Assembly (NCBI RefSeq): GCF_009725755.1
Contig: NZ_WNIJ01000001.1
Location: 1,054,001-1,118,000 of the forward strand
Reading direction: 5' to 3'
DNA: 64,000 nt
Origin: Bombella sp. ESL0385
GTDB taxonomy: Bacteria > Pseudomonadota > Alphaproteobacteria > Acetobacterales > Acetobacteraceae
The position numbers were made by a program, and so were the translations under genes. This document shows, piece after piece, positions 9,664-20,916 of this stretch. How positions within the stretch are numbered: position 1 is the first letter of the stretch; each line of letters begins with the position of its first letter. A model generated the notes under the pieces. The model saw nothing but the letters and a program-made list of their open reading frames with translations, made no database searches and was not told where the DNA came from.

Positions 9664-11472
9664 TTGATTTCGCAGGGGCCTAAGATAGTTCAATCTGAAG
9701 GTCCAAACGGAGCTAGTCTAGGTTTGACCGAGGCCAACCAAAACACCAATCCCGCGCTCTCCATCACGCCGAGCCGTTCAGGAATCGAACGCCGCTATGG
9801 AGACTTTCCCAGCTTCCCTGCTGCTCTGGACTATGCAGCCCAGGGTAAGAGTGGCTTTAACATTTATTCTGGTCGCGGCACCCTGCTGGAGGTTTTGCCT
9901 TACAGTAAGCTACGCCAGCAAGCCCATGCTACAGCACGACGCTTGCTTGGTGCAGGACTGAAAGCGGGTGATAGAGTCGCTATTGTGGCTGAGAGCGATG
10001 GGGATTTTGCCCGTATCTTCTTCGGTTGCCAATATGCGGGCCTTGTTCCAGCACCGTTGCCTTTACCGGTCGCCTTCGGCGGAAAGGAAGGCTATATTGA
10101 GACCCTGCGCGGGATGATTACTAGCGCAGATGCGCGCGCTGTTATTGTTCCTGATGTGATTGGAGGCTGGACAGCTGATATTATTAAGGGCTTCCCTCTT
10201 GTTTTTGGTGGTTCCCCTGCTGAATTAATGACCCTTGAGGAAAGAGACATCCCCCTGCCGGAAATATCAGGTGATGGGTTGTCTTATCTTCAATTCTCCT
10301 CAGGAAGTACGCGCTTCCCTATGGGGATAAGTGTGACCCAAAAAGCTGGTATGGCTAATGCTCATGCTATCGCAAAATATGGGTTACAAGTTTACCCAAG
10401 TGATGATGTGCGTGATGACCGTTGCGTCTCGTGGTTGCCTCTCTATCATGATATGGGGCTTGTTGGCTTCTTTCTCACCCCGATGACATGCCAACTTTCG
10501 GTCGATTTACTACCTACTCGTGAGTTTGCACGCCGCCCGAATGTTTGGTTGGAGTTGATTGCCCGTAACAAGGGTACGATGTCCTATAGCCCGTCTTTCG
10601 GTTATGAATTATGCGCACGCCGTGGCGCACGTGAGGATATAGACCTCTCCTCATGGCGTGTTGCGGGGATTGGCGGCGATATGATTCGCCCGCACATCAT
10701 CCATAGCTTTGCAGAGACGTTTGAGAAAAGTGGCTTCGATAAGCGTGCTTTTGTTGCGAGCTACGGTATGGCTGAGACAACTCTCGCCATTAGCTTTGCT
10801 CCGCTCAATACGGGTCTTCGTGTTGATACGATTGACCTTGCCGCTATGGAGCGTGAGGATTTTGCTCGCCCCGCTCATGAAAGAACAGACACGGCGCGGG
10901 ATTTCGTCTTATGTGGCGTTTGCTTGCCTGAGCATCAAATTGAGGTGCGTGACCCTGCCGGTAAGCCGCTCAAAGAACGTGAGGTTGGGACTGTCTTCGT
11001 CCGTGGGCCAAGTCTAATGTCCGGTTATTTCAACCGTCCTGAAGAGACAGAGGCCGTGCTTTCCCCAGATGGTTGGCTCAATACCGGTGATATTGGCTAC
11101 ATGCTGGATGGGCAGATTGTTATTACCGGCCGGGCGAAAGACCTCATCATCATCAATGCACGCAATATCTGGCCCCAAGATTTGGAATGGGCGGCTGAGC
11201 ATGAGGTGAACTCCCTCCGCTCGCGTGATGTCGCAGTTTTCTCCGTTGATTCTGGTGAAGGCGAACAAGTTGTTGCATTGGTGCAATGTCGTTTCACGGA
11301 TGAGGAGCCACGCACAACGCTGCGCAATGAGCTGGTCGGCCTTTTCCGCCGTATGCATGGCATTGATGTTAATGTTGTTCTCGTACCGCCGCGGTCTCTC
11401 CCACAGACCTCCTCTGGGAAGTTGACACGGGCACGGGCGCGGGCAATGTACCTCAACAAAGAATTTGAATAA
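9664..11472 (+). CDS. Fatty acyl-AMP ligase (acyl-ACP synthetase), sphingolipid cluster
   Basis: A 602-residue adenylating enzyme that probably activates a fatty acid as acyl-AMP and loads it on the acyl carrier protein encoded just downstream. Motifs of the ANL superfamily are visible: FSSGSTRFPMG (phosphate loop, Ser-Gly-Ser-Thr), SYGMAETTLAI, GWLNTGDIGYM, GRAKDLIIINARN, and SSGKLTR with the C-terminal catalytic lysine. The overall pattern is of the fatty acyl-AMP ligase type. The start is TTG: a TAA at 9655-9657 closes the frame upstream and no ATG or GTG lies before the conserved part. An out-of-frame ATG at 9650 reads MGKIF and stops at TGA 9665-9667, overlapping the TTG. One extra T in the run 9660-9665 would put that ATG in frame. 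Confidence 0.88.
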   Translation: MISQGPKIVQSEGPNGASLGLTEANQNTNPALSITPSRSGIERRYGDFPSFPAALDYAAQGKSGFNIYSGRGTLLEVLPYSKLRQQAHATARRLLGAGLKAGDRVAIVAESDGDFARIFFGCQYAGLVPAPLPLPVAFGGKEGYIETLRGMITSADARAVIVPDVIGGWTADIIKGFPLVFGGSPAELMTLEERDIPLPEISGDGLSYLQFSSGSTRFPMGISVTQKAGMANAHAIAKYGLQVYPSDDVRDDRCVSWLPLYHDMGLVGFFLTPMTCQLSVDLLPTREFARRPNVWLELIARNKGTMSYSPSFGYELCARRGAREDIDLSSWRVAGIGGDMIRPHIIHSFAETFEKSGFDKRAFVASYGMAETTLAISFAPLNTGLRVDTIDLAAMEREDFARPAHERTDTARDFVLCGVCLPEHQIEVRDPAGKPLKEREVGTVFVRGPSLMSGYFNRPEETEAVLSPDGWLNTGDIGYMLDGQIVITGRAKDLIIINARNIWPQDLEWAAEHEVNSLRSRDVAVFSVDSGEGEQVVALVQCRFTDEEPRTTLRNELVGLFRRMHGIDVNVVLVPPRSLPQTSSGKLTRARARAMYLNKEFE

Positions 11473-11548
11473 CTCTGCAAGGGCTATCTCCTCGCGAAGG
11501 AAGCTTCTATAATCGTCTTATCCTTCGCAGGCTATAAAGGGACAAAAC

Positions 11549-11803
11549 ATGACCGACAATGTTGCTGATATTTCTCAGATGATTCTCCAAAAATTGCTGG
11601 AGAACCCTAAAGTCCCGCGCGATATCACCGGGGATAGTCGCATTGTGGAGGATTTAGCCTTTGATAGCCTTGCTGTAATGAACTTCGTGATGGAAATTGA
11701 AGACACGCTTGATGTTTCCGTCCCACTTGATAAATTGGCCGATATCCGCACGATTAACGATCTTGCTGGCTGCTTGCAGGCCATTAAGGCAGAACAAGCA
11801 TGA
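11549..11803 (+). CDS. Dedicated acyl carrier protein for sphingolipid synthesis
   Basis: An 84-residue carrier protein. The phosphopantetheine serine is residue 40 in AFDSLAVMNF, followed by the acidic recognition helix MEIEDTLDVSVP. It differs from the housekeeping AcpP at 25016-25258, which has GADSLDTVE. Its TGA overlaps the ATG of the serine palmitoyltransferase gene by 4 nt (ATGA), so the two products are likely made in fixed ratio. By analogy with the Caulobacter spt locus, where an ACP and an acyl-ACP synthetase accompany serine palmitoyltransferase, it probably hands the acyl group to that enzyme. Confidence 0.9.
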   Translation: MTDNVADISQMILQKLLENPKVPRDITGDSRIVEDLAFDSLAVMNFVMEIEDTLDVSVPLDKLADIRTINDLAGCLQAIKAEQA

Positions 11804-12999
11804 GTGCAGGGTTATTTGATAAATACGCGACCTTACGGGGGAATTATGAATCCCTTATGGCCGCTAGCCCACGCAACCCTTTTGGGGTTGTTATTGAGCG
11901 TCCCCTCTCAGCAACAGTTGGCATTATAGAGGGGCGTGAAACCCTTTTATTTGGCACAAATAACTATCTTGGTCTCAGCCAGTCTAACGCAGCACGGGAT
12001 GCGGCTATCCATGCCGCTCAGACAATGGGGGTCGGAACGACTGGTTCCCGTATTGCCAATGGGACTTTCGGCCTGCATCAAAAGCTAGAGCATGCTCTTG
12101 CCAAAGTCTTCCAGAGAAAACATGCTATGATTTTCTCGACGGGCTATCAGGCAAATTTGGGCACGATTTCGGCTCTTGTAAATAAAGATGATACGCTTTT
12201 CCTAGATGCAGATAGCCATGCCTCCATTTATGATGGGGCGCGTCTCTCTGGGGCGCAAATTATCCGTTTCCGCCATAATGACCCTGCTGACCTTGAGAAG
12301 CGCATCGCTCGGACAAGCAATAGCACAGGGGCTCGCCTCATCATTGCTGAGGGCATTTACTCCATGACGGGGAATATTGCCCCTTTAAAGGAGTTTGTTG
12401 AGGTCAAAAAACGCCACAACGTCCCCCTCCTCGTAGATGAGGCTCACTCCTTTGGTGTGCTTGGTGCGCATGGCCGTGGTGTTGCAGAGATGCAAAATTG
12501 CGAAGCGGACATAGACTTCATCGTGGGGACCTTCTCCAAATCTTTGGGAACGGTAGGTGGTTATTGCGTTACAAATCATGATGAGATTGACCTCATCCGG
12601 CTTTGCTCGCGGCCTTATATGTTTACAGCCTCCCTCCCCCCGGAGATTATTGCTGCCACCCTCGCCGCTTTAGAGGAAATCGAAACAAAACCTGAGTTGC
12701 GTGAGAAGCTGCAAAAAAACGCTGCACGGTTGCATGAGGGCTTTAAGTCTGTTGGGTTGAATACCAGCAACTTCATCTCTCCTGTCATCGCTGTGACGTT
12801 GGAGGATATACCGCAAGCTCTCGCCTTCTGGAATGCGCTGCTGGCTGCGGGTGTTTATGTAAACCTCTCACTTCCCCCAGCAACGCCTGATAATCGTCCA
12901 TTGTTGCGTTGCTCTGTCATGGCAGCACATTCTTTTGATGAAATTGACCGCGCTGTAGAGACATTTGGTACAATCGCTAAAGAACTACAGGTCGCTTAA
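11800..12999 (+). CDS. spt: Serine palmitoyltransferase (alpha-oxoamine synthase)
   Basis: Condenses L-serine with a long-chain acyl thioester to 3-ketosphinganine, the first committed step of sphingolipid synthesis. The fold type I PLP enzyme of 399 residues shows GTTGSRIANGTFGLH, the aspartate-histidine pair in VDEAHSFGVLG, and the PLP lysine near residue 246 in GTFSKSLGTVGGY. Other alpha-oxoamine synthases (BioF, Kbl, HemA) share these motifs; the preceding acyl-AMP ligase and carrier protein make serine palmitoyltransferase the best call. No 3-ketosphinganine reductase or ceramide synthase is visible in the window, so those steps must be encoded elsewhere. Confidence 0.9.
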   Translation: MSAGLFDKYATLRGNYESLMAASPRNPFGVVIERPLSATVGIIEGRETLLFGTNNYLGLSQSNAARDAAIHAAQTMGVGTTGSRIANGTFGLHQKLEHALAKVFQRKHAMIFSTGYQANLGTISALVNKDDTLFLDADSHASIYDGARLSGAQIIRFRHNDPADLEKRIARTSNSTGARLIIAEGIYSMTGNIAPLKEFVEVKKRHNVPLLVDEAHSFGVLGAHGRGVAEMQNCEADIDFIVGTFSKSLGTVGGYCVTNHDEIDLIRLCSRPYMFTASLPPEIIAATLAALEEIETKPELREKLQKNAARLHEGFKSVGLNTSNFISPVIAVTLEDIPQALAFWNALLAAGVYVNLSLPPATPDNRPLLRCSVMAAHSFDEIDRAVETFGTIAKELQVA

Positions 13000-13004
13000 A
13001 ATAT

Positions 13005-13036
13005 TCCCCCCTCTTTAATTAAGAGGGGGGATTTTT
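13005..13036 (+). terminator. Intrinsic terminator after the serine palmitoyltransferase gene
   Basis: A perfect 11-bp stem (13005-13015 with 13021-13031, six G-C pairs in a row) with loop TAATT is followed by TTTTT. It ends the acyl-AMP ligase/ACP/spt operon and separates it from the convergent gene ending at 13041. Confidence 0.93.
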
Positions 13037-13040
13037 ATAC

Positions 13041-13976
13041 TTACTTTGTCGTTTTCCGAAAATGTCTAGCACGCCATAAGAAGAAAGGCAGAGTTAAGAT
13101 AGGGTGCTTGCGCTCAAAAGTGAAAACATGCACCTGCTTACCGGTATGACGTTGTATCTTCCATAGTAGATAAGAAACGCCGTCCTTAAAGGTAAAAGCC
13201 GCTTTAATAAGGCGACTGAGATTAAGAGGGCGACCATAAGCAGCAATTTTTTGCCAGTTTTTGGCAGCTTTCTTCCGAGATGACGCTGTCAGATAAGGGC
13301 GCAGTGTTTCATTATTCGTTTGATAACTCAAACCTGCCTGTTGCCACGACGCTTTTAAAAGAGCTTCATATCGCTCCTCGCGCCCTTTAAGCAACTTATG
13401 ACCACGCCCTTTTTTCTCTACTCGCAGCTCTGCGGCATAAGTATGAGCAAAGAGAGTACGCCAATAATCTATTGCTTCCCCTTCTTTTGGCCCAAGGAGA
13501 GCCGCCCAGCATGATGCGGTTATCAAGCATTGCCGCAATGCCTGCAAAATGCGATCAGCCGCACGGCCATTGCGTACCCAAACTAAACGCACAGGCTGAC
13601 AAAAGCGCGCCCAAATGGTCGTATCAAGGCTAAAAAGCGTCCCTCTCCTTAAAAATTGCTCTTGAGAGAGAACAGCAACCTTAGCACGCAAGGTTGCGGC
13701 TTCAGTTTGATGCTCCATATAATAAACATTAGGCGGTAGAACTCGATTAGCGAACCGAGCGAAGGGATTGCCGCTTAAACTTGCTGGTTTCTCCGTAATA
13801 ACATAAAAATCTAAAATCCCTGTCGGGTCCACTTCCCGCAGGAGAGAGCCGTAAAATAATATCCCTAAAGGAGGCTCCCCCATTTTATATGCGATGGCCT
13901 CAGCAAATTGTGCAATCTCGTGCGGGACAGGCGTTGTTAACTCTTGGATGAGGGTTTTATCAATAAAATCAGACAT
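13041..13976 (-). CDS. Tam41-like nucleotidyltransferase (putative lipid-phosphate cytidylyltransferase)
   Basis: A 311-residue soluble protein. Residues 40-60 hold the nucleotidyltransferase signature FYGS followed at a distance of 12 by LDFYV (Gly-Ser at 43-44, Asp 56). Later, YYMEHQTEAATLRAKVAVLS and a segment ending FCQPVRLVW look like the middle of Tam41, the mitochondrial CDP-diacylglycerol synthase. The last 80 residues are very basic. It overlaps the lipid kinase gene by 8 nt and follows it, so kinase then cytidylyl transfer is the natural order. I infer that it activates a lipid phosphate, perhaps ceramide-1-phosphate, as a CDP-lipid. The family match is by eye and the substrate is a guess. 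Confidence 0.6.
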   Translation of the reverse strand: MSDFIDKTLIQELTTPVPHEIAQFAEAIAYKMGEPPLGILFYGSLLREVDPTGILDFYVITEKPASLSGNPFARFANRVLPPNVYYMEHQTEAATLRAKVAVLSQEQFLRRGTLFSLDTTIWARFCQPVRLVWVRNGRAADRILQALRQCLITASCWAALLGPKEGEAIDYWRTLFAHTYAAELRVEKKGRGHKLLKGREERYEALLKASWQQAGLSYQTNNETLRPYLTASSRKKAAKNWQKIAAYGRPLNLSRLIKAAFTFKDGVSYLLWKIQRHTGKQVHVFTFERKHPILTLPFFLWRARHFRKTTK

Positions 13977-14940
13977 GTAAAAACCGGAAACTCGGCCCCT
14001 CTTCTAACATGATTTGCTTATTGGAGGACGCAGGAAATACCTCTCCATCTAAGACAAAATCACTATCTGTCTCCAAGATCATCTTCTGAGCAATCATGCT
14101 ACTATAATCTTCATGCGACCATAACCAGTTAGGAACATGCCCTCTCAAAAGGTGAAAAAACGCCGCAGGAAGACGCTTGGGAAAGGCATGAACATCTAGA
14201 AAATGAAAGCCTTTCCGATTGGAACCAGTATTCCAAAACGGCCAAATACCATAGGATAACTTTTCTAAGGCGGTTGCCATATAAAGAAAACTATAACCTT
14301 CTCTTTGCTCCTTTAAATCATCCCCCTCGGCATGCCATGACAAAACATTCCCACTCAGCCATGACTGACGGCTACTCCGCCATAAAAGGCTCGCCACACT
14401 GCTAAATAATGTGAAAAATACGGCTAAATCATGAGGAGCAAATCTCAATACCGTTGGAGAATGGGCAATACGCACAGCGCGTGCATAACCAGTACAGCCA
14501 CCAAACATCCCCAATACGGAGGGCATATCCTGCCCCGGCCAAGATAATTTTATGGGAGCGCGCACGCTACTTTTTAAGCTTTCAGGCTGTAAAATACGAT
14601 CAACGGCCGCCTCACCACGCAGCCCAAAACCAACATCACCAGCAATGAGGTTCGTATTACCAGAGGGCAGCACTGCGACAGCCGGCAAAGGTGAGCCGCG
14701 ATATGTGTTAGCGATGGCCGTAAGGGAGGCACTCACAGTGCCATCCCCACCATCAATAGCAATAAAATTAACGCCTTTCTTCTTCAACACTGCCAAATGG
14801 GCAGGGAGATGACTATCATTAAGTGTGGCAATGCAAAACTCTCCCATCTTCTGGCGCGCCATGCGCATAAAGCGACCGTTATCTTGTATATTTCTACGGC
14901 TATTGGGATTGTGAATGAGGGCAGCTTGTACGTTTTTCAT
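13969..14940 (-). CDS. Diacylglycerol-kinase-family lipid kinase (candidate ceramide kinase)
   Basis: Phosphorylates a lipid hydroxyl with ATP. The catalytic domain signature GGDGTVSASL begins at residue 64, and LPSGNTNLIAGD near 91 is the second nucleotide-site motif. The C-terminal part (FVLDGEVFP) is the usual family ending. Length 323 residues is typical. In Caulobacter a member of this family next to spt phosphorylates ceramide, so its place here beside the serine palmitoyltransferase operon supports a ceramide or long-chain-base substrate; diacylglycerol remains possible. It is divergent from the phosphoesterase-lptF operon with 155 nt between them, and its 3' end overlaps the Tam41-like gene by 8 nt. 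Confidence 0.85.
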   Translation of the reverse strand: MKNVQAALIHNPNSRRNIQDNGRFMRMARQKMGEFCIATLNDSHLPAHLAVLKKKGVNFIAIDGGDGTVSASLTAIANTYRGSPLPAVAVLPSGNTNLIAGDVGFGLRGEAAVDRILQPESLKSSVRAPIKLSWPGQDMPSVLGMFGGCTGYARAVRIAHSPTVLRFAPHDLAVFFTLFSSVASLLWRSSRQSWLSGNVLSWHAEGDDLKEQREGYSFLYMATALEKLSYGIWPFWNTGSNRKGFHFLDVHAFPKRLPAAFFHLLRGHVPNWLWSHEDYSSMIAQKMILETDSDFVLDGEVFPASSNKQIMLEEGPSFRFLHV

Positions 14941-15095
14941 GAATCTCTACATTTTATCCATCACATACCCGCCCAGAAACAAGAAGCCATGTTGTTTCCC
15001 AAGCTGGTCGAAATCCTTTAACATGGCTATGCTATAGGAACCAGAAGGGAGTTCCCCTGTAAAGACTGTTCTCTATCGCAATCTATGGTGCCGCC

Positions 15096-16019
15096 ATGTT
15101 TTTCGACTCCTTAGCCTCTTTCCCCAACCGGCGCGCTCCCGCTATTCATCTGGCACATATGTCAGACCCGCATCTTCCACCTCCGCACATTCCTTGGACT
15201 TCTTTTTTTAATAAGCGATTGCTGAGCCGTACGTTATGGCGCAGCAAAAGACGCCATATTTTGCGCCCTGATATTACGCATCAATTGGTTGAAGATATTG
15301 CCTCTCATAAAGAAATACGCGCTGTTCTTATCAGCGGAGACATTACCAATTTTGGCACGAAGGAGGAGTATAAACAGGCCGCAACATGGCTGAAAGGGCT
15401 GCCTGTTTCCCCCGTTATTGTGCCTGGTAATCATGATTTTATGGCACCGATTGCCCATAAGCACAGCCTCGCGCAATGGGAAGAATGGTCCGACAAAACA
15501 TTTCCCTTTGTGCGTTTTTTCGGCAAGGTGGCTGTTATCGGTTTAAACTCCGCGCTCCCGACCTTACCTTTTACGGCCTATGGCCTCATTAACAAAAAAC
15601 AACGTAATAATCTGGCCAGATTGCTTGCGGAATTAGGCAAAGAGGGATACTGCCGGGTTGTTATGCTTCATCACCCCCCGCGGAAGGGGCTTCTACCCTA
15701 CAGGAAGTCCCTCATCAATACATCACGCTTGAGTAAGATATTACGTACTTACGGGGCGGAGCTTGTGCTGCATGGTCATTCCCACGATGCCACGCTAACT
15801 ACAGTGGAAGGCACGGATATTCCCCTCCTTGGGGTGAGTGCCGCGGCAATGGATAGCCACATTATAAGCCGTAAAGCGAGCTGGAATCATCTCAGCTTCA
15901 CACCCCATACAAAAGGATGGCACATCGCTGTGCAACGCATAGATGCCACAGGGCATGTTTTCGCACAGATGGAATGGGACAGCAGTTCTTCTTTAAGGCC
16001 GGTAAATGTTCATTCGTAA
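15096..16019 (+). CDS. Calcineurin-like metallophosphoesterase, head of lptFG operon
   Basis: All five metal-ligand blocks of the family are present: MSDPHLPPPH, SGDITNFG, PGNHDF, MLHHPP and LHGHSHD. No signal peptide is evident, so the 307-residue enzyme is probably cytoplasmic or peripheral. It overlaps lptF by 14 nt and begins the operon lptF-lptG-hydroxylase-nucleotidyltransferase. Family members cleave phosphomonoesters, phosphodiesters or pyrophosphates (for example LpxH and LpxG). In this setting a pyrophosphatase acting on a CDP-lipid or a lipid phosphate phosphatase is plausible, but nothing in the sequence fixes the substrate. Confidence 0.82.
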   Translation: MFFDSLASFPNRRAPAIHLAHMSDPHLPPPHIPWTSFFNKRLLSRTLWRSKRRHILRPDITHQLVEDIASHKEIRAVLISGDITNFGTKEEYKQAATWLKGLPVSPVIVPGNHDFMAPIAHKHSLAQWEEWSDKTFPFVRFFGKVAVIGLNSALPTLPFTAYGLINKKQRNNLARLLAELGKEGYCRVVMLHHPPRKGLLPYRKSLINTSRLSKILRTYGAELVLHGHSHDATLTTVEGTDIPLLGVSAAAMDSHIISRKASWNHLSFTPHTKGWHIAVQRIDATGHVFAQMEWDSSSSLRPVNVHS

Positions 16020-17172
16020 GTCTTCTCTACCGACACTAGATCGTTATTTATTACGCCAATTAGTCCCACCTTTTACGATTGCTCTTGGGACAATGCTGGT
16101 CGCCTTGTTGCTTGATAGGTTATTGGCCCTTTTTAATCGGCTCGCCAGTAGTGGTAGCTCTATTGCCACCTTATTAACATTGCTAAGCGACCTGCTGCCT
16201 CATTATATGGGCTTAGCCCTACCAGCGGCTTTATGCATTGCTGTCTTTATGACCATTAACCGCATGAGCGAGCATAATGAGATTGACGTGCTCTATGCGG
16301 GCCATATCTCACTCCTCCGCATTAGCCAGCCTTATATTAAAGTGGGTGCGGTTCTCGCTGTTTTAAGCGTCCTTCTCTATGGTTATTTGCAGCCAATCGC
16401 GCGCTATGATTACCGTGAGGGCTTTTATTTTGCACGCCATACAGGCTGGGCCCCTCACCTACAATCCGATATGTTCGCAACTACCTCCACCACAACGCTT
16501 CTAACAGCAGATTACGTGGACCATGGAGGCTCTCGTTTACGCCGTATTTTCATCCGCGATGTGAAAGATGATGGGACAACGGAGCTTATTACAGCCCCTA
16601 AAGGTCTACTCACCCTCTCTGAACGTGATAAATCTACACAGCTTGATCTTTGGAATGGTCAGATCATACGCGCTAAATCGCCTAACCTTCCTGATAGCCA
16701 TGTTTCAGTTACCCATTTTGAACATATTGCCCGCTTAATTGAACGCTCTGGCAACCAAGAAGCTTTTCGCTCCCGTGGGAATGATGAGAGAGAGATGACA
16801 ACATTGGAGATTCTTTCTGCGATTCGGCATAATTCATCGCATATTTCTCCTAAAACGCTGCGAGCGGAAATAGATTTTCGCTTAGCCCGCGCGATTAGTA
16901 TTATGTTTATACCGTTTCTCTCCATCGCCTTTGCCGTCCGAAAAAAGCGTAAACGCTCTGCCCTCGGGCAAATTATGCTAGCCATTATCCTTGTAGGGTT
17001 TGATGAAGTTTTGCTCTTTGGTGATAGCCTCGCCGCTAATGGGACAGCACCTGTGTGGCTAAGCCTTTGGGTGCCAGAAGCTATTTTCTGCCTCGGATGT
17101 ACATTTGCGCTACTTGCACGCTCCAAAGTAAGTTGGCGGCATAGAGAGCAAAAAAGCTCAAGGACTGCGTGA
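16006..17172 (+). CDS. lptF: LptF-family permease in the sphingolipid island
   Basis: A 388-residue inner-membrane subunit of the LptFG type. It has the N-terminal helices from LDRYLLRQLVPPF to about residue 125, a periplasmic beta-jellyroll (about 130-285), and C-terminal helices starting at RLARAISIMFIPFL. In known systems LptF and LptG form the permease that LptB2 powers to lift a lipid into the periplasmic bridge. The gene overlaps the phosphoesterase gene (14 nt) and is 4 nt before lptG. Usual alphaproteobacterial lptFG lie near lptD, pdxA and ksgA; their place among sphingolipid genes is unusual. Either this is the sole copy that moved or a paralogue for sphingolipid export. Confidence 0.83.
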   Translation: MFIRKSSLPTLDRYLLRQLVPPFTIALGTMLVALLLDRLLALFNRLASSGSSIATLLTLLSDLLPHYMGLALPAALCIAVFMTINRMSEHNEIDVLYAGHISLLRISQPYIKVGAVLAVLSVLLYGYLQPIARYDYREGFYFARHTGWAPHLQSDMFATTSTTTLLTADYVDHGGSRLRRIFIRDVKDDGTTELITAPKGLLTLSERDKSTQLDLWNGQIIRAKSPNLPDSHVSVTHFEHIARLIERSGNQEAFRSRGNDEREMTTLEILSAIRHNSSHISPKTLRAEIDFRLARAISIMFIPFLSIAFAVRKKRKRSALGQIMLAIILVGFDEVLLFGDSLAANGTAPVWLSLWVPEAIFCLGCTFALLARSKVSWRHREQKSSRTA

Positions 17173-17176
17173 TATT

Positions 17177-18277
17177 ATGAGATTTCCCCTACTCCACGCT
17201 ACGTTGTTAAAAGTCTTTTTGCGCCCTCTTATCACTAAAATCCTCATTTGCTGCTGTGTGTTGACGGCACTCTTAGAGATATTGGCCCTTCTTGATGATG
17301 CTTCCACGATTTTGGACCGTCATCTTGGGTTCCACGGTATCCTAAAATATGTCGGGCTGCATTTGCCTACCCTGCTTGTCGAGATTATGCCTCTTTCGGT
17401 CATGATTGGGGGGTTGTTCACATTGCTGCAAATGGCACTCTCTAGTGAGATTGCTGTGCTGCGTGCAGCGGGCCTTTCTACCCTAAATATGTTCCGTTAT
17501 CTTTTGCCCGGCCCGTTAATCTTGAGCGTCATCTGCATCGCGCTAAAGTTATGGGTCGTCCCTCCTTTTGAGCAAGAACTTAACCGTTGGTGGAATGAAG
17601 GGGCGACACAGGCTAACGCTACAAATGACCTCCACAGCCTTTGGTTTCGTGATGGGTCAGATATTGTACGGGTGGAAATGATTAGCCATGGCGGTAATAC
17701 GCTTTCACAGGTTACGCTCTATCATCGCAACCCCAGTAACGGTGCCTTAACCTCCACTCAACATTATGAGCAGCTAAATTACGAACATAATCAATGGGTG
17801 GCGCATGGCACTTTCGATCGTACCGACCTCTACCAAGATAGTACAAAAGCTAGAATTACCTCGGAGTTTATTGTCCCTCTCCTATCTGCCACCCCGATGG
17901 ATATCATCAATATGACTTTGCCGGGTGTCTATTATACGCCACACCAATTTCGGCAAATTTTTTCCAAAAAAGCACCCTCAAATTTACCTAGATCAAATTA
18001 TTTGATGACCTTATATGCTATCTTATTCCTACCGTTGCAGATGGCCGTGATGCTTCTCGTTACGCTGCCTATTACATATATCCCGCCGCGGGCAGGGTTA
18101 CGAACCCCCTTGCCTGTATATGTTATGGCAGCTGGGTTAGGGATTGTTATCCTCCAAGGTATGATTTCGGCCTTGGGGAATGCGGGTTCCTTGCCTATAT
18201 TACTCGCTACATGTTCTGGTCAGGTTGTGGCGGCCCTGTTCAGCTTGGCTTGGATATTGCGAATGGAGGAAAAATGA
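17177..18277 (+). CDS. lptG: LptG-family permease in the sphingolipid island
   Basis: The partner of the preceding LptF: 366 residues with helices 1-3 (RPLITKILICCC to about residue 125), a periplasmic domain containing NDLHSLWFRDGSDIVRVE, and three C-terminal helices beginning at NYLMTLYAILFLPLQ. The segment SSEIAVLRAAGLS after helix 2 is the coupling-helix region that contacts the ABC ATPase. The stop overlaps the start of the membrane hydroxylase gene by 4 nt (ATGA). No lptB, lptC or lptA is in the window, so an ATPase must come from elsewhere. Confidence 0.85.
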   Translation: MRFPLLHATLLKVFLRPLITKILICCCVLTALLEILALLDDASTILDRHLGFHGILKYVGLHLPTLLVEIMPLSVMIGGLFTLLQMALSSEIAVLRAAGLSTLNMFRYLLPGPLILSVICIALKLWVVPPFEQELNRWWNEGATQANATNDLHSLWFRDGSDIVRVEMISHGGNTLSQVTLYHRNPSNGALTSTQHYEQLNYEHNQWVAHGTFDRTDLYQDSTKARITSEFIVPLLSATPMDIINMTLPGVYYTPHQFRQIFSKKAPSNLPRSNYLMTLYAILFLPLQMAVMLLVTLPITYIPPRAGLRTPLPVYVMAAGLGIVILQGMISALGNAGSLPILLATCSGQVVAALFSLAWILRMEEK

Positions 18278-19080
18278 GTACATTTAAAAACTTTTTTCAG
18301 GGCACGACTCTTATGCATAAGGGTCGAAGCTATGATCTAGGGAAGATGAACCTGTCTCAATTATGGGCAGCCTATCTCACCTACCCCACGATTCTACTTT
18401 ATTTCGCCCTTATTATAGGGACAGCTGTACTCAGCGTGTATCTACGCCATAGCTGGTGGGGGGTATTGATCCCCGTTCCTGTTATCATCGCTGTTTATCC
18501 TACGGCATGGTATATTATTCATCGTTATATCCTTCATGGGCGTTGGTTTTATCGCAATCCAATCACCGCCGCGATGTGGAAGCGTATTCATTTTGACCAT
18601 CACCAAGACCCGCATCTTTTGGAGGTGTTGTTCGGCTCCCCTCTAAACACTGTGCCAACCATGATGGCAATTACCATGCCTATTGGTGCACTTATTGGCG
18701 GATGGGGTGGTGCTTTTTCTGCTCTTGCCACCGCACTGGTGATGACCTGCATTTATGAGTTCTTTCACTGCATTCAGCATTTGGCCTACAAGCCTCGCTG
18801 GCAGTGGGTGGTGTATATTAAGCAGCTTCATGTTCTACACCATTTCCATGATGAAGACGGCAATTACGGCATTACAAACTATCTGCCAGACCGGATTATG
18901 GGGACATTCTACCGCGCAGCGAAGGATCGCCCTCGTAGCCCTTATGTCTTTAACTTGGGATATACGGTGGAAGAAGCTGAGCGTTATCCTTGGGTGATGC
19001 GCCGTACGGGGGCTCCGCCGCGTGACCGGCCCGACCCAGCACGCGCTCCTAAAAAAGAAGAACTCGCCAAGAGCGCATGA
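18274..19080 (+). CDS. Membrane-bound fatty acid hydroxylase superfamily protein
   Basis: A 268-residue integral-membrane di-iron enzyme of the sterol desaturase/fatty acid hydroxylase superfamily. The histidine clusters are HRYILH, HFDHHQD, HCIQH and HVLHHFHDE, and the tail PDRIMGTFY is the usual end of the catalytic domain. I start at ATG 18274, which has GGAGG 5 nt upstream and overlaps lptG by 4 nt; the longer frame from 18211 is a read-through of lptG. Ceramides of acetic acid bacteria contain 2-hydroxy fatty acid, so hydroxylation of the acyl chain or long-chain base is an attractive role, but hopanoid or other lipid substrates are possible. Confidence 0.85.
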   Translation: MSTFKNFFQGTTLMHKGRSYDLGKMNLSQLWAAYLTYPTILLYFALIIGTAVLSVYLRHSWWGVLIPVPVIIAVYPTAWYIIHRYILHGRWFYRNPITAAMWKRIHFDHHQDPHLLEVLFGSPLNTVPTMMAITMPIGALIGGWGGAFSALATALVMTCIYEFFHCIQHLAYKPRWQWVVYIKQLHVLHHFHDEDGNYGITNYLPDRIMGTFYRAAKDRPRSPYVFNLGYTVEEAERYPWVMRRTGAPPRDRPDPARAPKKEELAKSA

Positions 19081-19832
19081 CAGTTCCTGTTTTAATTCTG
19101 GCGGGTTCACGCGATGGAGAGCGTGACCCGCTAGCGCAGATGGGCAAGGTTACGCATAAGGCCCTCCTCCCTATTGGAGGAACCCCGATGATTGACCGTG
19201 TTGTCCACTCTTTAGAGCAAACATCGGGCATCGGGCGTATTTGGGTAAGTATAGAGCACCCCGAATATTTAGCGCATTTGGGGGATCGCGTTGCTCTTAT
19301 AAAGGCGTCCCCTTCACCTAGCGAGAGCGTTCTCAATGCTGTGCGCATGATAGGGACGCCTTGCCTCGTTACCACGGCTGATCACGCCCTTTTACAACCT
19401 CAATGGGTCGAGGAGTTCCTAGAAAAAAGTTGTGCAGCGCAAGTGGACCTTACAGCCGGGATTGCTCTTAGGGAGACCATCCAACGGGATGTCCCGCAAA
19501 CAGAAAGAACGTATATTCATCTCTCTGATATAAGCTTTTCAGGTTGTAATTTATTTTGGCTAGGTAATGAGACCTCACTTGAGGTTATCGCCCTCTGGCG
19601 TCAACTTCAGCGTTATCGTAAGCGGCCATGGCGTATGGCTCTTACCCTTGGACTCTCCACTATTCTGCGCGTCTTAACTAAGACACTCACCTCTCGGCGG
19701 TTGGAGGAGCGAATCCATACTCTCACCGGGGCGTCTGTCCGTCTTATCCCCCTCTCTGATGGTCGCGCTGCTGTGGATGTAGATAAGCCATCTGATGCCC
19801 ATCTTGTTGCACAACTTTTAGAGACGTGGTGA
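19077..19832 (+). CDS. MobA-like nucleotidyltransferase
   Basis: A 251-residue protein that starts VLILAGSRDGERD and continues KVTHKALLPIGGTPMIDRV, the P-loop-like nucleotide and metal-binding pattern of small-molecule NTP transferases such as MobA, CofC and inositol-1-phosphate cytidylyltransferase. TTADHALL near residue 102 gives the metal aspartate, and AAVDVDKPSDA near the end is the second. It overlaps the hydroxylase gene by 4 nt and ends the operon. A plausible role is making an activated polar head group (for example a CDP-polyol) for a complex sphingolipid. Molybdenum cofactor roles are less likely in this context. Confidence 0.7.
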   Translation: MTVPVLILAGSRDGERDPLAQMGKVTHKALLPIGGTPMIDRVVHSLEQTSGIGRIWVSIEHPEYLAHLGDRVALIKASPSPSESVLNAVRMIGTPCLVTTADHALLQPQWVEEFLEKSCAAQVDLTAGIALRETIQRDVPQTERTYIHLSDISFSGCNLFWLGNETSLEVIALWRQLQRYRKRPWRMALTLGLSTILRVLTKTLTSRRLEERIHTLTGASVRLIPLSDGRAAVDVDKPSDAHLVAQLLETW

Positions 19833-19851
19833 GGGGAATACATCCCCTCAC
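19829..19851. terminator. Hairpin between convergent genes
   Basis: A perfect 9-bp stem GTGAGGGGA / TCCCCTCAC with loop ATACA begins at the stop codon of the MobA-like gene, in the 29-nt gap before the convergent gene ending at 19862. There is no clear T-tract on either side, so it may be a weak bidirectional terminator or an RNA end-protecting hairpin. Confidence 0.45.
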
Positions 19852-19861
19852 GAGCTTCCTC

Positions 19862-20752
19862 TCATCTTTTCAACAGTTCTTTTTTGAGTTTGAAAAAGGC
19901 CGGGCGCAGACCGTGTCGAATCTTTTTAAAATCAACCAAAGTGACTTTGCCCGCAGCAGAGAGCGTGTGCATACCATCAGGATAATCCTTCAAGATAGGC
20001 GTATGTAACGGAACAGCCTCTCCCCCGCACAGCACGGGACGTCCTTTTCCAAAGCCTGATAAATGGAGAAAACGTAAGCCACCTCCATAAGTTACGCTAC
20101 AATCTTGCACAGGGAGAAACACGTCGTCCCCCTCCACAAATGGGGTCCCTCCCGGGCGCGCACCACTTTTATCAATAAGGAACCGGCCTAAATCACACCA
20201 AGGCCCGGTTAATTCTTCAGCTAACGCAATATGTAACGTACTCTGTCGGCATGTCTTTGGCTCTGGCGGCGTCCAGAATAACCACCACCGCCCAGCATGA
20301 TAAAGTGGCGTTGCATCAATCGCCCCAATAGGAAATACAAAACTTGAAACTTTCTCCCATTCATAAGGGAAAGAACGTGCTTTATATAAAGTCAAACGGT
20401 CAGATTTATAACCCTCTGGCAGCATATAAGTAACCCCTTCATGCTGGAATACATAAGGGTAAGAGAGGTGCCAATCTTCTTTTAAAACGGTGCGATGTTC
20501 TAATAAAGTAAAGGTCTCATCATAAATAAGGACATCTATGACGCCTTTACTTTGGTGATAGTCATAATATTCCGCGAAGACATATAGCTTACCATCCCGC
20601 CAAAGCCCGAAAGGATCCGCCAAAAAACCATCATTCCCACAAGATGGCAGAAAGGTCATCTCAATATCATCGAGACCATTTTGCCGGATAATCTGCTCAA
20701 AAGGGGCGTGCAAGATTGCTGACCGCCAGTAATCCATTTTAAACAGTTTCAT
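19862..20752 (-). CDS. Beta-propeller protein resembling the N-terminal domain of glucosamine inositolphosphorylceramide transferase
   Basis: About 296 residues from ATG 20752 (the longer frame to 20827 adds an unlikely basic leader). Repeated blade motifs are FLADPFGLWRDGKLYVFAE, HLSYPYVFQHEGVTYMLPE, ATPLYHAGRWWLFWT and ARPGGTPFVEGDDVFLPVQD, a five-bladed propeller like that of glycoside hydrolase 43-related proteins and of the GINT1 N-terminal domain. In plants that domain is part of a sphingolipid glycosyltransferase; in bacteria it is mostly uncharacterised and often occurs with glycan genes. Its place at the end of the sphingolipid island suggests a role in head-group decoration, but the activity is unknown. 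No signal peptide or membrane helix is seen. Confidence 0.65.
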   Translation of the reverse strand: MKLFKMDYWRSAILHAPFEQIIRQNGLDDIEMTFLPSCGNDGFLADPFGLWRDGKLYVFAEYYDYHQSKGVIDVLIYDETFTLLEHRTVLKEDWHLSYPYVFQHEGVTYMLPEGYKSDRLTLYKARSFPYEWEKVSSFVFPIGAIDATPLYHAGRWWLFWTPPEPKTCRQSTLHIALAEELTGPWCDLGRFLIDKSGARPGGTPFVEGDDVFLPVQDCSVTYGGGLRFLHLSGFGKGRPVLCGGEAVPLHTPILKDYPDGMHTLSAAGKVTLVDFKKIRHGLRPAFFKLKKELLKR

Positions 20753-20916
20753 AACCTTGCATCCTACGGATTTATTTATGCGATGCTGTATCATACATCG
20801 CCCTTTCCTCAGACGAAAGGGCAGCATGCATAACAGACCTAAAATTGTACCATATCCTTTGTAAGCTTATTGTGATTATTATACCTCATTCTGCTTATTC
20901 ATAACGAGACTCTATC

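Follow-up and report, generated by a model that had tools for sequence, protein, structure and literature searches.

A probable phosphosphingolipid block with a second LptF/LptG pair in Bombella and other acetic acid bacteria

We analysed a stretch of 64,000 nucleotides from the acetic acid bacterium Bombella sp. ESL0385 (contig NZ_WNIJ01000001.1, positions 1,054,001 to 1,118,000; hereafter the window), which carries a block of genes including spt, the gene for serine palmitoyltransferase. The block probably makes, decorates and exports a phosphosphingolipid, and would be an acetic-acid-bacterial variant of the Caulobacter crescentus CC_1168-CC_1152 cluster. The main new content is the tight link between spt and a second LptF/LptG pair, a relocated pair of ceramide synthase (cerS) and short-chain dehydrogenase (SDR) genes, and the loss of the extension of ceramide phosphoglycerate (CPG) to CPG2 with ntp, a nucleotidyltransferase gene, being kept. 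An initial annotation, which described sphingolipid genes lying side by side with overlapping ends, proved accurate in its inventory: every gene it named was found, in order and with short overlaps (positions are those of the window).

9664..11472, + strand: aasR-type fatty acyl-AMP/ACP (acyl carrier protein) ligase (NF006624, 875 bits; cut-off 600)
11549..11803, + strand: acpR-type dedicated acyl carrier protein (PF00550), overlapping spt by 4 bp
11800..12999, + strand: spt, serine palmitoyltransferase (NF047599, 601 bits; cut-off 500)
13041..13976, - strand: CpgC-like (CC_1161-type) Tam41-fold nucleotidyltransferase, predicted CDP-ceramide synthase
13969..14940, - strand: CpgB-like (CC_1160-type) putative ceramide kinase (PF00781, 40.5 bits)
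15096..16019, + strand: metallophosphoesterase (mpe) in the CC_1158 position (PF00149)
16006..17172, + strand: lptF2, a second LptF (PF03739, 188 bits)
17177..18277, + strand: lptG2, a second LptG (PF03739, 190 bits)
18271..19080, + strand: FA_hydroxylase-family sphingolipid hydroxylase (PF04116, 68.7 bits; cut-off 31), with 18271 as the chosen start and the longest open reading frame beginning at 18211
19077..19832, + strand: ntp, MobA/IspD-fold nucleotidyltransferase of the CC_1153 type
19862..20827, - strand: GINT1_N-type beta-propeller protein (PF24793, 108.5 bits; cut-off 27), start uncertain

Co-occurrence was scored in 150 genomes spread evenly over the Acetobacteraceae (the window's genome being G000), with 48 counted as spt-positive (47 above the curated cut-off plus a fragment in G126) and 102 as spt-negative; the counts and Fisher tests ignore kinship and treat related genomes as independent, and the counts carry more weight than the p-values. 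At least four LptF/LptG matches were present in 47/48 spt-positive versus 2/102 spt-negative genomes, with three matches in four further spt-negative genomes. CpgC was found in 41/48 versus 1/102 and, at E < 1e-80, the hydroxylase in 42/48 versus 2/102 and ntp in 40/48 versus 1/102; a cerS-like gene was present in 48/48 versus 14/102. The kinase, counted at loci only and without a genome-wide search, was present in all 40 Acetobacteraceae loci fetched with cpgC. The spt-negative exceptions for CpgC, hydroxylase, ntp and LptF/LptG were two genomes of the same genus: in G056 the island adjoins a divergent spt-like gene, and the fragmented assembly of G132 yielded no spt-like gene but contains the hydroxylase, cerS and SDR. 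The initial annotation had grouped the kinase, the MobA-like nucleotidyltransferase and the genes between them with spt, with a mostly spt-negative distribution of kinase-to-propeller homologues named as the argument against; for CpgC, the hydroxylase, ntp and LptF/LptG, the opposite distribution was seen. Across the class as a whole, 34/289 genomes had CpgC, and the class-level loci with cpgC (n = 23, at least 12 kb) contained spt in 17 cases and lptF2 in 19.

The window's genome contains two LptFG pairs, the pair on contig 2 being the stronger match. For a tree with a short search, 75 LptF and 72 LptG rows, each 300 to 560 residues long, were reduced to 94 by keeping every second island row. 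The island LptF copies formed one group (29 rows; Shimodaira-Hasegawa-like approximate likelihood ratio test, SH-aLRT, 100) and the island LptG copies another (27 rows; SH-aLRT 97), both apart from the lipopolysaccharide (LPS)-type rows; one G132 row labelled LPS-type grouped with E. coli LptG. LptB2FG likewise has two adjacent PF03739 permease genes, and the tree separates the window's pair from those of the LPS type. The earlier proposal that the block moves a sphingolipid thereby gains a dedicated paralogue pair, while export itself is something we infer. LptF2 and LptG2 were named as probable sphingolipid transporters, untried there, in PMC11324152.

The comparison with Caulobacter runs through Phenylobacterium loci and the description in PMC11324152, rather than through Caulobacter sequences. 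In the CC_1168-CC_1152 cluster, aasR, acpR, spt, CpgC, CpgB, a phosphoesterase, LptF2, LptG2 and a CC_1153-type gene follow in the same relative order as in the window. The order in Phenylobacterium locus L297 is spt / cpgC, kinase, cpgA / mpe, HIT, lptF2, lptG2, cerS, ntp / cpgD; L263 shows this order with no HIT gene called, and in L269 and L275 no mpe was scored. In contrast to the Caulobacter cluster, the window's genome lacks CpgA and the acetic-acid-bacterial loci lack CpgD; cerS (CC_1154 type) lies ~40 kb away, and an SDR replaces the CerR (CC_1164) epimerase. The window also has the hydroxylase between lptG2 and ntp, the GINT1_N propeller, and alr rather than CC_1166-type genes beside aasR, whereas an LptC2 (CC_1168) belongs to the Caulobacter cluster and PF06835 detects a single LptC here.

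Several genes of the block match their Phenylobacterium counterparts in both position and sequence. CpgC is 38-39% identical to Phenylobacterium CpgC at the same position, and has a Tam41 fold in its predicted structure, which supports the CDP-DAG (diacylglycerol)-synthase-type domain already noted in CpgC in PMC11324152. It matched no Pfam family at E 0.01, and no PDB Tam41 chain was found with profile A1 at E 10; relative to Tam41 CDP-diacylglycerol synthase, the fold is thus alike with no sequence-level match, and the predicted substrate is ceramide 1-phosphate. The mechanism of CpgC is described as unidentified, and CpgD as making CDP-glycerate, in PMC12275187 and PMC13228409. A search for CDP-ceramide in bacteria, mostly outside the subscription literature, returned no paper. 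Among the 33 members of the kinase family, 31 carry GGDG and none the eukaryotic CxxxCxxC, features described for bacterial ceramide kinases (PMC10331486). Searches with the kinase and the SDR (E 1e-20) against PDB sequences gave nothing decisive. The mpe product is 38-39% identical to the copies between cpgA and lptF2 in L263 and L297; its assignment as CC_1157 was dropped, since in L297 a HIT-domain gene sits between mpe and lptF2, and by position it fits CC_1158.

On these grounds, the following route may be proposed. AasR would load a fatty acid onto AcpR, and Spt would condense it with serine, after which the distant cerS/SDR pair would N-acylate and reduce the product to dihydroceramide. 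The hydroxylase would then act on dihydroceramide, probably on its amide-linked acyl chain, the CpgB-like kinase would form ceramide 1-phosphate, and the Tam41-like CpgC would use cytidine triphosphate (CTP) to convert this into CDP-ceramide, the putative source of a glycerate-type head. As CpgA is absent from the genome and CpgD from the loci, the pathway lacks the CPG2 extension, and its product would be a mono-phosphoglycerate ceramide, or a derivative formed with the help of ntp and MPE, joined in relatives by a glycosyltransferase (GT4). LptF2/LptG2 would replace LptF/LptG in the Lpt machine, extracting the sphingolipid from the inner membrane, and would share LptC and probably the rest of the LPS bridge. 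The predicted outcome is a hydroxylated dihydroceramide with a phosphoglycerate-type head, exported through LptF2/LptG2. The initial view that the block makes a phosphorylated or decorated sphingolipid agrees with gene content, order and co-occurrence; it needs revision in that the propeller is loosely tied to the block and in that a close head group is not undescribed, since the orthologous Caulobacter cluster makes CPG and CPG2 (PMC11324152). For acetic acid bacteria themselves, no head-group study was found in titles and abstract openings, mostly outside the subscription literature.

The head group is an uncertain element of this route. In Caulobacter, CpgB and CpgC are linked to CPG, and CpgA, CC_1158, CC_1153 and CC_1152 to CPG2 (PMC11324152). 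A CpgA search at E 0.001 was empty for the genome of the window, and scores above 440 bits occurred in only 4/150 genomes; CpgD was absent from the fetched acetic-acid-bacterial loci, a search covering loci and not whole genomes. A CpgD-like gene occurred only where CpgA was also present in the locus or genome, or in one short locus cut by a contig end. Nevertheless, ntp was present without CpgA in 35/40 Acetobacteraceae cpgC loci (33 with mpe, two without) and in 18 of 39 named cpgC loci of at least 12 kb, which were found via ntp and so necessarily contain it; ntp directly follows the kinase and cpgC in Altericroceibacterium (L303) and in a Sphingomonas bin (L308). It is therefore possible, if less likely than a glycerate lipid, that CDP-ceramide takes another alcohol (inositol, serine, an amino alcohol or a sugar) and that ntp, GT4 or the propeller supplies an undescribed head group: ntp and mpe persist together in those 33 loci without CpgA, GT4 occurs in 17/40 cpgC loci, and an inositol monophosphatase-family gene flanks the block. 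Against this, that family is very broad, and Caulobacter requires CpgB and CpgC for CPG, with CpgA needed for CPG2 only (PMC11324152).

The GT4 gene lies downstream of ntp in many acetic acid bacteria (L074, L088, L089, L092, L102, L281 and others), but neither the window nor its closest relatives' loci (L106, L109, L110, L111 and L115) showed a copy. The ntp fold belongs to a broad nucleotidyltransferase group, its best structural relative being an uncharacterised Thermus protein (2dpw). Thermus lipids carry a glyceroyl unit. A route to the head group through this relative was rejected, because the Thermus and Bacillota loci fetched showed no island gene besides ntp; six scanned neighbours comprised five housekeeping types and one unmatched gene. 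These ntp relatives (L234-L259) lie outside any sphingolipid context, several of those in Bacillota near purine-repressor, glmU-like and prs genes. Separately, four spt islands (L069, L078, L128 and L121, in G068, G100, G140 and G098) lack cpgC and the kinase and carry a CDP-OH_P-transferase-like gene with weak cpgA-profile matches, Pfam-confirmed in L069; from its genes, this type is predicted to be a further module that adds a head group to the shared ceramide core.

The ketoreductase and ceramide synthase, initially reported as absent, do lie outside the window, and the genome contains a candidate pair. A query with a cerS-like GNAT protein identified a cerS homologue at G000:C1:1024684-1025865, which lies 28 kb beyond the edge of the window and ~40 kb upstream of spt, 31-33% identical to Phenylobacterium cerS and 30% to yghO of E. 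coli BL21(DE3), and divergent from an SDR gene. Among 23 fetched contexts, hand-picked from 62 genomes with a cerS homologue, an SDR lay beside cerS in 18/19 from genomes without CerR and in 0/4 from genomes with it; the single CerR-less context without an SDR comes from an spt-negative genome (G015), and in G056 the cerS/SDR pair directly adjoins the spt-like gene. Gluconobacter GOX2417 is presumably flanked by an SDR and a glucokinase (GOX2418 and GOX2419). In Gluconobacter oxydans, aasR (GOX2058), acpR (GOX2057) and spt (GOX2056) lie together and aca (GOX2417) elsewhere, as in the window's genome (PMC9386255). The scheme given there ends at ceramide, with epi (GOX1849) assigned as the reductase by homology, and the head-group, hydroxylase and LptFG2 genes fall outside its treatment in the part available. 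A ketoreductase of this epimerase type encoded elsewhere, with the SDR beside cerS being unrelated, seems doubtful: the published assignment and the abundance and promiscuity of SDRs speak for it, but the CerR type (profile A2, at least 337 bits) occurs in only 14/150 genomes, and the best match in the window's genome (3.6e-20) is weaker than the generic epimerases of many spt-negative genomes. Synteny thus favours the SDR over a GOX1849-type epimerase as the candidate ketoreductase. In nine genomes below the spt cut-off (G005, G015, G016, G028, G075, G088, G095, G106 and G115), an spt-like synthase adjoins a cerS-like GNAT gene, perhaps marking a second sphingolipid or sulfonolipid-like pathway.

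The notion that LptF2 and LptG2 are extra or backup LPS permeases lying by chance beside genes that otherwise make a sphingolipid is improbable, since, despite two full-length LptF_LptG proteins, no second LptC by PF06835, a transport role read from genes and a BL21(DE3) spt-side pair above the LPS cut-offs (318 and 308 bits), their presence follows spt, the alphaproteobacterial island copies form their own tree groups, G029 and G116 retain four LptF/LptG although the pair has left the block, and a backup would be expected in spt-negative genomes too, because all 126 good-quality genomes (at least 90% complete, at most 5% contaminated) have an LptF/LptG match. A dedicated sphingolipid pair remains our preferred view. 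The blocks of G116 and G029 (L116 and L117) are complete apart from mpe, lptF2 and lptG2. E. coli BL21(DE3) has yghO, an acyl-AMP ligase, an epimerase, ACP, spt, lptG and lptF adjacent to one another (NC_012971.2, 2989282-2997066; L212). Its spt-side pair passes the cut-offs and groups, on long branches, with the LPS pair of E. coli itself; this pair may therefore have been recruited independently, or may simply serve LPS. LptC was also considered as a third dedicated transport part and rejected at the sensitivity of PF06835, whose matches (one in 127 genomes, two in 4, none in 19) did not track spt.

Of the remaining genes in the block, the hydroxylase carries the histidine motifs HRYILH, HFDHH, HCIQH and HVLHH, which agree with the pattern of FA2H/Scs7. 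It was also present in 16/23 class-level and 18/39 named cpgC loci, and is more than a local oddity of acetic acid bacteria. The propeller was rejected as a core member: its initial inclusion in the pathway reduces to a loose tie with spt (33/48 spt-positive versus 12/102 spt-negative genomes; 15/40 fetched cpgC loci). It shares the N-terminal PF24793 propeller with plant GINT1 (glucosamine inositolphosphorylceramide transferase), but no glycosyltransferase domain was found in it, only GINT1_N and a sub-cut-off GH43 match. The aasR, acpR and spt core of the Caulobacter-type cluster is present in the window, next to alr, and aasR lies upstream of acp-spt in relatives too. AasR is 73% identical to the Gluconobacter thailandicus island copy and 44% to the BL21(DE3) copy beside spt, AcpR is 82% identical to that of G. 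thailandicus, and Spt 50% to the annotated spt product of BL21(DE3). In G126 (L118; contig 1 near 577 kb), stops or splits affect both the island genes and the distant cerS; sequencing error is possible there, because the neighbouring inositol-phosphatase gene is also split.

A number of points weigh against our interpretation. The lipid product is predicted here from the genes, the co-occurrence genomes are related with counts uncorrected for kinship, the kinase is only 29% identical to the Phenylobacterium copies in the CC_1160 position, and the step joining glycerate to activated ceramide has no assigned gene. CC_1153 is needed for CPG2 in Caulobacter (PMC11324152), whereas here ntp persists in the absence of CpgA; either the published scheme or our transfer of function must therefore be wrong in part, and the retention of ntp appears hard to square with a CPG2-only role. 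G021 has spt with only two LptF/LptG and no cpgC, and G068, G100, G140, G098, G086 and G049 have spt and four LptF/LptG without cpgC, so that export and this head group would be separable. With the NCBIfam LPS equivalogs, the island pair scored 174 for LptF (cut-off 230) and 184 for LptG (cut-off 240), but the LPS-type LptF of the same genome also fell short (217, its LptG reaching 251); the cut-offs do not separate the two pairs, and their use as proof that the island pair is non-LPS was dropped. Finally, PF06835 gave one LptC match in the window's genome, a profile that a divergent LptC2 could escape.

Taking both sides together, we consider the chances evenly balanced for a broader proposal: that ceramide-making bacteria run a second, lipid-specific Lpt pair, in which LptF2/LptG2 would be a sphingolipid extractor feeding the LPS bridge, gained and lost with spt, and that acetic acid bacteria couple this pair to a shortened, hydroxylated phosphosphingolipid, with the MobA-like enzyme working alongside CpgB/CpgC rather than CpgA/CpgD, contradicting the published role of CC_1153.

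The route of bacterial sphingolipids to the outer membrane is stated to be unknown in PMC11324152. With the match of LptF/LptG copies with spt (47/48 versus 2/102) and the separate tree groups, what had been suggested for LptF2/LptG2 becomes a claim open to direct testing, for which Gluconobacter and Acetobacter are easily cultured hosts. The candidate pair of ketoreductase and ceramide synthase departs from the reductase assignment in the literature, and CpgC acquires a predicted CTP-dependent role. Acetic acid bacteria, organisms of food and of the insect gut, would thereby gain a predicted phosphosphingolipid.

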